Part shown: positions 2,883-60,719 of the stretch, one piece after another
Layout: the number at the start of each line of letters is the position of its first letter
How positions within the stretch are numbered: the first letter of the stretch is position 1
Origin: Pirellulales bacterium
GTDB taxonomy: Bacteria > Planctomycetota > Planctomycetia > Pirellulales > JAEUIK01
Direction of reading: 5' to 3'
Assembly: GCA_019694435.1 (NCBI GenBank)
Contig: JAIBBZ010000006.1
Location: 124,001-188,000, forward strand
Length of the DNA stretch: 64,000 nt
The notes under the pieces: model-generated
Seen by the model: only the letters and a program-made list of their open reading frames with translations
Databases searched by the model: none
Told to the model about the DNA's origin: nothing
Made by a program: the position numbers and the translations under genes

Positions 2883-5090
2883 TCATCTTCGGCACCACCG
2901 CCGGCCACGCCCCGTGAGCAGCAGCACCCCGGCAATCGCCGCCAGCACGAGCGACGACGGCTCTGGCACCGCAGCCACGAGCTGCGCGGAAGCCTTCGAT
3001 TGCGCAAACATCCAATCGTAGAGCCCATACTGGTTCAACTCGGCGTCGTTGTAGACCGGGTCCCAGATATCGTGCCCTCCGTTGGGAATTTCGGTGAAGA
3101 GCGGCGAGCCACCCGCATTGCGAATCGCATTGACCATGCCGCGCGAGTAGGTGACGGGCACCACGTCGTCGAGGGTTCCGTGAAACACCCACAGCGGGAT
3201 GTCCTTGATCGTGGGCGCGTCGAGAATGCTCCCGCCGCCGGACATCGGGACCGCGGCGGCAAACAGATCAGGACGCTCGGCCAGGTACTCGAACGTGCCG
3301 AAACCGCCCATCGACAGCCCGGTGATGTAGATCCGGTGGGGGTCAACGGGATATGTCGCGAGGACGTCGGCCAGGATTTCCAAGGTGCGATCGTAGCTGG
3401 ACGTCGGCGTCCACCCGCCGGCGAACGGAAAATCGGTCATCTGCGGGGCGAGCAGAAACGCCCGGTAACGGTCGCCTTGCGTCGCGTTGATCAGGCCGTC
3501 GATGTGATTGAGCTGATCGTAATTGTCGACGCCGCGTTCGCCGGAACCGTGAAGAAACAACACCAGCGGCAATTGCTCGGCCGACGACTCGGCGCCCGAA
3601 GGCACGAACAACCGGTACGGCATCGGAAACACGCCATCACGATCGAAGACGTTTTCCACCGAATCTTTGGTATGCAACGAAGCGGCTTCGACCCCCGAGG
3701 CGCCGAGCACCAGGGTGCACACGACACCGCACAGCACCCGGCGAAGCCAGCCTCGCCGCCGCGCGGCAAACACCAAAGCGAATCCCATCGTGGCCAGGAA
3801 CCAACTGGCCGGCTCGGGCACGACGGCCGTCGACAGGGCCACGCCCAGGCGATAGCCGCCCGGCGACGAGTCGGAGGCCGCCAGCGTCGGGCCCGGCTGC
3901 GCAAAGGGCACCACGGCCAGCGTGTATTCGCCCGGCGCTGCAAAGGCGTATTCGATGAAGGCATCGTTCGAGCTGAGGCTCCCTAACGCCCCCAGCGTCG
4001 ACGAGGCATCGTCGTTCGAGGCGATCAGCCTGCCGAGCGCATCGTACAGCAGCAGGCGCGTATCGAAGCTCGCACCGTCGATGTCAAAGATGCCCACGGC
4101 GTTGGCTGCCGAGACGTGGAAGCGATAATAATCGGGAGTTCCGTCAGCCTCGGCGTCGATGGTCAAGTGCGGCATGGCCGCGGAAATGTTGACCAGCGAT
4201 TCGCCGATGTTCGGATCGAAGCCCGAGCGAAACTCCGCGTCGAGCGACTGGGCCGTCGCCAAGCTGTCGTTGTCCGGATTGGCCCGCACGATCGTCGGCT
4301 CGGCAAGCTGAAAGCTATGTCCGACGATCTGGCCCGCGACCTGCAGGCTCACATTAATCCGCCCGATGCCTTCGACGTCATCGACCGATGTCAGGACCGA
4401 AGTGTTGATTGGCACGCGCAGGTCCCAGCCGCCCGAGGCGCCCATGCTCAGACTGCCTTGGCCGGCGATGTTTTGGGCCGCGTAGCGCTCCTCCAGGTCG
4501 AACCGCACGGGATCAATCAACAACCCCAGGCCCGATTGCCCTTCGAAGTCGAGCTTGGTCGAAACGGAAATCCATTCGTCGGTCGCGAACCCGTAGTTGC
4601 CCGATCCCAGATCGGTCAGCGAGGTGATCGAGTATTGATCGGCGTAGTCCAGCCAGAAGTCGCGGACCGCGGCCACCGCGCGGGTCGGAACGCCGCCGAC
4701 GTCGAGGATCATGATGCCCAGAAAGGCCGGGGCGATGCCGTGTTCGCCTTGCGGCAGCGGCTCCCAGATTCCGCTCGGCAAGCCGTACATGCCGCCGCCG
4801 CCGAACTTCATCGTGCCGGCGTCGAAATCGACATTGGCCGCGAGCACACCGTCCAGCTGGCCGGATCGCCCGGTGCTGAAGCCAGGCTCGCCGAGACCGC
4901 GGCGCCCCTGACCGACGGTCGTCACGACGAGACCCAGATCGAGGAAATTCAGCGTGGTCGTGGATTGCAGAACGCTTTGCGTGGGATCGACATCGAAATA
5001 GAGCCGCTCGCCCGCACCGGCGGCTCCCGGCGATGTGAAAGCGACACACCAAGACACCAGCGCGCAGCCAAAGACAGTTCGAACCGACAT
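2883..5090 (-). CDS. Two PEP-CTERM proteins fused in one frame: PPC-domain protein plus alpha/beta-hydrolase
   Basis: The 735-residue product carries two complete sets of export and sorting signals. Residues 1-26 form a signal peptide. Residues 27-420 are a beta-rich region ending in a probable bacterial pre-peptidase (PPC) domain around 270-420. A full PEP-CTERM signal follows at 425-451: PEP, a hydrophobic helix, then an Arg-rich end. Immediately after, residues 452-470 resemble a second signal peptide. Residues 475-695 are an esterase/prolyl-oligopeptidase-like hydrolase with oxyanion HGSG at 514, nucleophile Ser593 in GLSMGG, acid Asp641 or Asp642, and His673. A second PEP-CTERM motif sits at 709-735. 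The ATG at 5090 has GAGGG eight bases upstream. Codon 452 is GTG and could start the hydrolase separately. No stop or frame shift separates the halves. PEP-CTERM tails are cut by exosortase, so the halves may be sorted independently. Confidence 0.85.
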   Translation of the reverse strand: MSVRTVFGCALVSWCVAFTSPGAAGAGERLYFDVDPTQSVLQSTTTLNFLDLGLVVTTVGQGRRGLGEPGFSTGRSGQLDGVLAANVDFDAGTMKFGGGGMYGLPSGIWEPLPQGEHGIAPAFLGIMILDVGGVPTRAVAAVRDFWLDYADQYSITSLTDLGSGNYGFATDEWISVSTKLDFEGQSGLGLLIDPVRFDLEERYAAQNIAGQGSLSMGASGGWDLRVPINTSVLTSVDDVEGIGRINVSLQVAGQIVGHSFQLAEPTIVRANPDNDSLATAQSLDAEFRSGFDPNIGESLVNISAAMPHLTIDAEADGTPDYYRFHVSAANAVGIFDIDGASFDTRLLLYDALGRLIASNDDASSTLGALGSLSSNDAFIEYAFAAPGEYTLAVVPFAQPGPTLAASDSSPGGYRLGVALSTAVVPEPASWFLATMGFALVFAARRRGWLRRVLCGVVCTLVLGASGVEAASLHTKDSVENVFDRDGVFPMPYRLFVPSGAESSAEQLPLVLFLHGSGERGVDNYDQLNHIDGLINATQGDRYRAFLLAPQMTDFPFAGGWTPTSSYDRTLEILADVLATYPVDPHRIYITGLSMGGFGTFEYLAERPDLFAAAVPMSGGGSILDAPTIKDIPLWVFHGTLDDVVPVTYSRGMVNAIRNAGGSPLFTEIPNGGHDIWDPVYNDAELNQYGLYDWMFAQSKASAQLVAAVPEPSSLVLAAIAGVLLLTGRGRRWCRR

Positions 5091-5375
5091 GGGGTTGCCC
5101 TCAAGAAAATGAAAAAAGCATGCCTGACAACACGCGGCGTGGTGCGATCAGTAGCTGTTTCCAAGGAGGGCAGCAGGGGCAATGGAGACCAAGCATGTGG
5201 CCCCCGCATGCCCGTGTCAAGCGCGCGGCGGGTTAACCCTGCTGGCAGCCATCAAGAACAGGAACGGCCGGCGGCGGGCAAGCATTCGCGCTGGCCACAC
5301 CGCCGGCCGTTGGGTCGCACCCTTCGTCACCGGAATAAGCTCGGGACGCCCGTGGCCATGAGGCCACTGAAATGA

Positions 5376-59921: not shown

Positions 59922-60719
59922 ATGCGAAGTGGGCAGATGATGAGAAGCGTCGCATTTCTATTGATCGTCGCCTCAACGGTGTTGGGTTTCGCCACGACCA
60001 GGTCGTTTGCCGCGCCCGCATACGTTCACCTGAACCTGGCGGGTTCGAGCCTGCTGCTGACGATTGACGCGCTGGGTGCGATCACCGCCACGGTCGGCTT
60101 CAATCCGACCGGCACGCAGGAGATCTTCTTTGACGACGGCTGTGACCCCACGTCGATGACTTTCGACCATGGTGATTTTTCCCTGAGCGATCAGACCCTG
60201 CAGCTCAATCTCGGCGCCCTCGGCAATGTGCGCGTCGGCTTTGCAGGCGTGAAGCTCGGCGGCCTGGTGAGCACGGGCAACGTGCCGCTCAACTACACCG
60301 GCGGCACCTGGAACTACACGTTTGATCCGGGCGATCCGACGGGTGGCAATGTAACCAGCATCGCCATCGACGAGGGTCTGCTGACTTATGTCGGTTCGGG
60401 TGCCATCTCGCTGCTGCTCGGCTCGGGTACGCTCGATTTCGCGACCGACCCGGTCATCGCCGACCTGCCGTCGCTCGGCCAGACCGGCACGTTGACGCGC
60501 ACGTTGTTGAGTAGTGCCAGCAGTTCCTATTCCGTGGTGCTCTCGGCTCCGCTGTCGGTGTACACCGCCGTAGACTCTGACCTGGGCATCTACGCCACGC
60601 TGCAAGGGGTGATTCTCGCCACCGGCACCTACATGTGCGTTCCGGAGCCCTCAACGCTGGTCTTGCTGAGCATTGCCCTGGTTGGCTTGATCCCGATTTG
60701 CCGGCGGATCAGGAAATAG
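59922..60719 (+). CDS. PEP-CTERM sorting domain protein
   Basis: A 265-residue exported protein. Residues 1-30 are a signal peptide (cleavage near SFAAPA). The middle is a Gly/Thr/Leu-rich beta region without recognised domain (YVHLNLAGSSLLLTIDALGA and following). The C-terminus is a PEP-CTERM signal: VPEPSTLVLLSIALVGLIPICRR with a basic end RIRK. Exosortase would process and retain or export the protein at the envelope; the exosortase gene is not in the window. GGAGGG at 59910-59915 precedes ATG 59922 by six bases. It is monocistronic and convergent with the next gene. Confidence 0.88.
   Translation: MRSGQMMRSVAFLLIVASTVLGFATTRSFAAPAYVHLNLAGSSLLLTIDALGAITATVGFNPTGTQEIFFDDGCDPTSMTFDHGDFSLSDQTLQLNLGALGNVRVGFAGVKLGGLVSTGNVPLNYTGGTWNYTFDPGDPTGGNVTSIAIDEGLLTYVGSGAISLLLGSGTLDFATDPVIADLPSLGQTGTLTRTLLSSASSSYSVVLSAPLSVYTAVDSDLGIYATLQGVILATGTYMCVPEPSTLVLLSIALVGLIPICRRIRK

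Follow-up and report, generated by a model that had tools for sequence, protein, structure and literature searches.

An internal PEP-CTERM tail in a Pirellulales genome marks a candidate secretory polyprotein

Introduction

How is one to read an open reading frame in which a complete PEP-CTERM protein runs, with no stop, into a second one? According to Haft et al. (2006; PMC1569441), 87% of PEP-CTERM tails are followed by fewer than 10 residues; tails placed internally, or carrying long extensions, are very few and more variable, and may be non-functional. An ORF of this unusual kind resides in a 64,000-nucleotide stretch of a Pirellulales bacterium genome, hereafter the window. It spans positions 2883..5090 on the minus strand, and measures 735 codons plus the stop. 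A sequence-only reading had proposed that it may be a natural polyprotein, two cistrons whose stop codon was lost, or an assembly error. The analysis described here indicates that the ORF resembles a bacterial polyprotein of a kind apparently not described before, which would be cleaved in the course of export. It is best explained as one of a wider class present in this order of planctomycetes, each chain comprising from two to ten surface proteins.

Results

Organization of the fused ORF

Translation of the frame yields 735 residues with zero internal stops, and all the parts of two complete PEP-CTERM proteins, as originally described, are present. An N-terminal signal peptide, recognized by inspection and with a cleavage site estimated by eye, covers residues 1–26 (5013..5090; this and the following features are on the minus strand). 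The first mature domain, defined by translation and by alignment to the orthologue described below, extends from residue 27 to 423 (3822..5012). The PPC-type region suspected in this domain corresponds to a match to NF038127 (DVUA0089 family) at residues 317–397 (3900..4142), with 30.2 bits (cut-off 29), though Pfam PPC itself matches the first unit below its cut-off. The internal PEP-CTERM tail (residues 424–451, 3738..3821) is made by the VPEP motif, a hydrophobic helix and the basic stretch RRRGWLRR. The latter is shared, being also the n-region of a signal-peptide-like segment at residues 444–469 (3684..3761). This segment, identified by composition and junction analysis, has the features of the second signal previously noticed after the first tail: the RRRGWLRR loop, a hydrophobic stretch, and VEA at 467–469, with a predicted cut after VEA-469. 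A secreted esterase domain (residues 470–707, 2970..3683) and a terminal PEP-CTERM tail (residues 708–735, 2886..2969) complete the ORF.

Searching both tails with a PEP-CTERM model, as had been suggested, gave two PF07589 matches above the cut-off of 20.7 bits in a genome-wide scan (28.7 bits for the internal tail, 22.6 for the terminal one). The second tail is located at the extreme C-terminus. The first is followed by 284 residues, and is therefore termed PEP-CTERM-like in an unusual place, rather than an ordinary member of the family. In having a single open frame that spans two otherwise complete proteins, the ORF at 2883..5090 is a putative polyprotein. A single-sequence structure model was useless (mean pLDDT 32), and the helices that it places at residues 426–442 and 447–464 are not counted as evidence.

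The second unit was classified as a PHB-depolymerase-like alpha/beta hydrolase on the basis of alignment and of matches to PF00326 and PF02230. By sequence, the closest solved structure is 3doh (E 1.8e-40); 3doh and LC-Est1C (3wyd) appear to be relatives of the esterase domain, the matched region alone being compared. The score against NF050058 (extracellular PHA depolymerase type 1), 67.1 bits, falls under the curated cut-off of 150, and the unit is hence called an esterase and not a PHA depolymerase. The catalytic triad, reported as intact, is made by Ser593 in a GLSMG motif (GxSxG), Asp641, which is the aspartate left unnumbered before, and His673. All three residues are conserved in a 52%-identical orthologue.

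PEP-CTERM tails in the same genome

The genome hosting the ORF is a draft of 6.13 Mb in 90 contigs. It contains 77 tail-like matches, 74 of which stop within 23–54 residues of the PEP motif; one longer match is spurious. Most are thus ordinary single tails, and true run-on tails are 2/77, which goes beyond chance; an internal exosortase signal had already been called unusual. The two exceptions are the ORF at 2883..5090 and a second two-tail ORF on another contig (G000:C3:67889-70069, locus L090:390-2570, plus strand), a frame of 726 codons encoding unrelated domains. The layout of the two ORFs is alike. The junction of the second reads ...VPEPSSALLMVIGGAMLLGRTNRRR-MAMARIATVLSTALLVFPLTANA-DV... 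and, unlike most junctions, contains in-frame ATG codons. A further PEP-CTERM tail, apparently of the ordinary terminal kind, is found in the window at 60639-60716 (plus strand) in a frame of 275 codons. The genome also encodes an exosortase (PF09721, G000:C17:106273-107031, E 6e-60), as do all the polyprotein genomes tested (7/7, this one included).

An orthologue of the fused pair

Among 396 genomes of the order, one full-length relative was identified in G057 (locus L015), which belongs to a different family. It is 52% identical over residues 8–722, and the first half taken by itself is 48% identical over residues 1–480. Orthologues always encoded as two separate genes, with a stop between residues 451 and 452, had been indicated as evidence against a fused product; the opposite was found, as L015 is a single open frame without stops and the fusion is the same, with the junction PEPPAFALAALPLVGFLFAARRRLGRRTAAVFALMVLAAFAPHAVLA-DD. 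The gene neighbourhoods of the two ORFs share no match. Scanning the first half of the protein against genome contigs gave no further relative, and no additional full-length relative of this half was detected in a sample of the phylum; the exact pair thus rests on one full-length orthologue. Purifying selection across the junction is hard to judge from the two sequences, as dS is saturated (about 1.5), junction dN being 0.58.

The esterase unit is found in other contexts. Stand-alone versions with their own signal peptide and tail exist, as in L022. In G024 and G048, the unit is part of an in-frame fusion with another PEP-CTERM protein, one consisting of NHL-like repeats; it has therefore more than one partner. 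Chains of another type occur in L020 (G389) and L024 (G065), where the frame of an esterase with a PEP-CTERM tail stays open through VEPLEDRRML, an N-terminal motif of planctomycetes, and on into a repeat protein. In these, the sorting tail is joined to a different N-terminal signal.

Multi-tail ORFs in the order

Junction profiles derived from four (A3) and 22 (A4) junctions were run over the 396 sampled genomes of the order, most of which are draft metagenome assemblies. Matching regions were fetched and read, and matches covering only the tail half of the profile were excluded. ORFs with multiple tails were found in at least 22/396 genomes, distributed in eight families: f1 (the genome of the window and G004), f6 (G011, G050, G074, G098, G118, G122, G149, G153, G157, G169), f11 (G032), f13 (G054), f14 (G035), f17 (G072, G097), f18 (G039) and f19 (G024, G040, G048, G057). 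G011 and G149 are single-contig assemblies. One case was found beyond the order, in G472 (L349). The architecture is featured by the records PLYM01000109.1 and PLYM01000219.1 (MAG palsa_1355) and JADLEL010000219.1 (Pirellulales MAG SJ322), which correspond to G054/G072, and by JAPLNA010000244.1. The apparent fusion in L234 was discarded, being chance open sequence ahead of a separate start. Chains of this type are no general feature: of the 77 tails in a mixed collection of 80 loci (planctomycetes, verrucomicrobia and other bacteria), 72 are ordinary, with a stop within 36 residues.

Long chains include L322 (ten tails, 2531 aa), with laminin-G-like and discoidin-like units, L160 (2594-9874, minus strand; seven tails, 2427 aa), in which six sulfatase-modifying-factor-like (FGE) units are accompanied by an unrelated one, and L323 (eight tails, 2298 aa), which carries laminin-G-like units. 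Units 2 and 5 of L160, which follow junctions 1 and 4, are near-identical over long stretches, so that chains seem to grow by unit copying. In G032, 76 of the 89 PEP-CTERM tails are found within 19 multi-tail ORFs, each consisting of one frame; internal tails are thus the main form of PEP-CTERM tail in this organism. They score no worse than terminal ones (median 33.2 vs 30.4 bits). In contrast to the remark made in 2006, the internal tails described here are intact and recurrent.

Putative polyprotein pairs from different species keep frame and junctions. L337 and L340 are 76% identical, with a whole-ORF dN/dS of about 0.14. L333 and L172, made by three and two units, respectively, are 83% identical, and dN/dS at the junction is about 0.11.

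Junctions between units

Statistics were obtained on 84 distinct internal junctions, whose layout was partly selected for, as they had been found by junction profile. The order of elements is uniform: PEP motif, hydrophobic helix, basic loop, hydrophobic helix, AxA. In the mean profile, positions 4–17 after PEP are hydrophobic, positions 18–26 basic, with almost no acidic residues, positions 27–38 again hydrophobic, and a polar mature start follows. The best AxA-type predicted signal-peptidase site is located at a median distance of 45 residues from PEP (quartiles 43–47). In frame 2957-5278 (plus strand) of L174, from G048, the junction linker measures about 110 residues and includes an extra signal-like segment; this may be a degraded unit, or intergenic sequence that happens to be open.

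The strongest alternative to a polyprotein is that two cistrons overlap in one frame, translation of the esterase beginning mostly at a GTG or TTG located within the first tail, and the fusion resulting from incidental read-through. GTG 452 (3735..3737), the second start indicated in the sequence-only reading, is a poor candidate, as the basic n-region sits upstream of this codon and none is left after it. The sole other start that keeps a basic n-region is GTG 440 (3771..3773), inside the helix of the first tail. It has a counterpart in L015, where TTG 438 occupies the matching position before FAARRR, and either codon would give a plausible signal peptide; the ATG codons at the junction of the second two-tail ORF fit the same hypothesis. 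No stop separates the units, however, and ribosomes translating the first must make the fusion. Moreover, initiation at an internal codon, possible in the ORF under study, is impossible at many sister junctions. In 72/84 junctions there is no ATG from which the second signal peptide could begin and still keep a basic n-region, and 36/84 have no usable start at all (ATG, GTG or TTG with a basic n-region); in the latter, translation must therefore be continuous. Junction 2 of L160 has zero start codons from PEP through to the mature domain. In the same ORF, one mature start, VTIPTVPVGN, follows both the N-terminal signal peptide with which unit 1 begins and the internal signal peptides. In contrast, ordinary neighbouring PEP-CTERM genes in the genome of the window have an ATG, and their PEP is separated from the cut that follows by at least 58 codons (about 8 pairs, a small sample). 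Judging from the start-poor junctions and from these neighbours, the fused state is more than a lost stop: in most cases, the second n-region and the basic end of the first tail have become one. Two cistrons with a lost stop are less supported than a polyprotein also because L015 is likewise fused, and internal initiation as the main source of the esterase is unlikely.

According to a second alternative, the chain is left uncut, and forms a multi-span membrane protein whose outside domains are linked by two-helix hairpins. The junctions do resemble such hairpins, with two helices flanking a basic loop. An uncut hairpin would need neither PEP nor AxA motifs, but PEP motifs are kept equally well at internal and terminal tails, and [AVS]xA is retained after the second helix, at +36 to +52, in 83% of junctions vs 73% in shuffles (1/500 shuffles as high). 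This makes an uncut chain quite improbable.

An assembly error, a sequencing indel or a recent stop loss leaving a non-functional internal tail would be compatible with a draft of 90 contigs and with the remark of Haft et al. (PMC1569441) on rare tails with long extensions, but is hardly credible, being contradicted by the occurrence of this fusion in the independent orthologue, by the recurrence of the layout, both in genomes assembled as one contig and in ORFs that count as many as ten tails, and by the G032 scores, which denote internal tails that are not degraded.

Discussion

Among the three origins initially considered for the ORF at 2883..5090, a natural polyprotein is the best supported, in view of the fused orthologue, of the recurrence of the architecture, single-contig genomes included, and of sister junctions devoid of starts. 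We consider it probable that the ORF encodes a two-unit PEP-CTERM polyprotein, whose single chain would be exported and cleaved at the junction by exosortase and signal peptidase.

We infer the following path. The first signal peptide would start export, and the first domain would cross the membrane until the PEP-CTERM helix halts transfer, leaving RRRGWLRR in the cytoplasm. This loop would have two roles, closing the first sorting tail and providing the second signal peptide with its n-region. The second hydrophobic stretch would then restart export, carrying the esterase out. Exosortase would cut at the PEP motif of the internal tail, signal peptidase after VEA-469, and the two-helix piece between the cuts would be discarded. 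Two separately sorted surface proteins would be obtained from each message, in equal amounts. Junctions in other members of the class may be cleaved by the same two enzymes. A broader proposal, which we hold to be reasonably likely, is that in some planctomycetes the majority of the surface proteins sorted by exosortase are produced in this way, as chains of up to ten units.

Viral and eukaryotic secretory polyproteins are known in which one chain of alternating stop-transfer and signal segments is cleaved at the membrane, yielding separate proteins on the outer side. The chains described here may be similar in the way they work, a resemblance that does not denote kinship. They differ in being bacterial, and exosortase would be responsible for the cut that precedes the hairpin. 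With PEP-CTERM/exosortase (EpsH, PF09721) sorting they share the tail motif, the presence of the enzyme family in the genome, and a signal peptide and C-terminal tail for each unit. Tails described in that system are C-terminal, whereas here they are internal, each leading directly into a further signal peptide, as many as nine times in one ORF of ten tails. The GlyGly-CTERM/rhombosortase and MYXO-CTERM/myxosortase systems (PMC3237569 and PMC11980579) similarly feature three-part C-terminal sorting tails cut by intramembrane proteases, but motifs and proteases are other than those of PEP-CTERM. In openly licensed PMC papers, no match was found for PEP-CTERM with polyprotein; internal, tandem or fused PEP-CTERM retrieved only the 2006 paper and a cyanobacterial paper worded 'two PEP-CTERM'.

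If cut as proposed, these chains would constitute a bacterial secretory polyprotein system processed by exosortase, an enzyme with poorly known natural cleavage products, and each junction predicts two new termini. One message would fix the ratio, and perhaps the export order, of many surface proteins. In the output of gene callers and domain searches, a multi-tail ORF would appear as one large multidomain protein, and surface proteomes are therefore probably misread in these bacteria.
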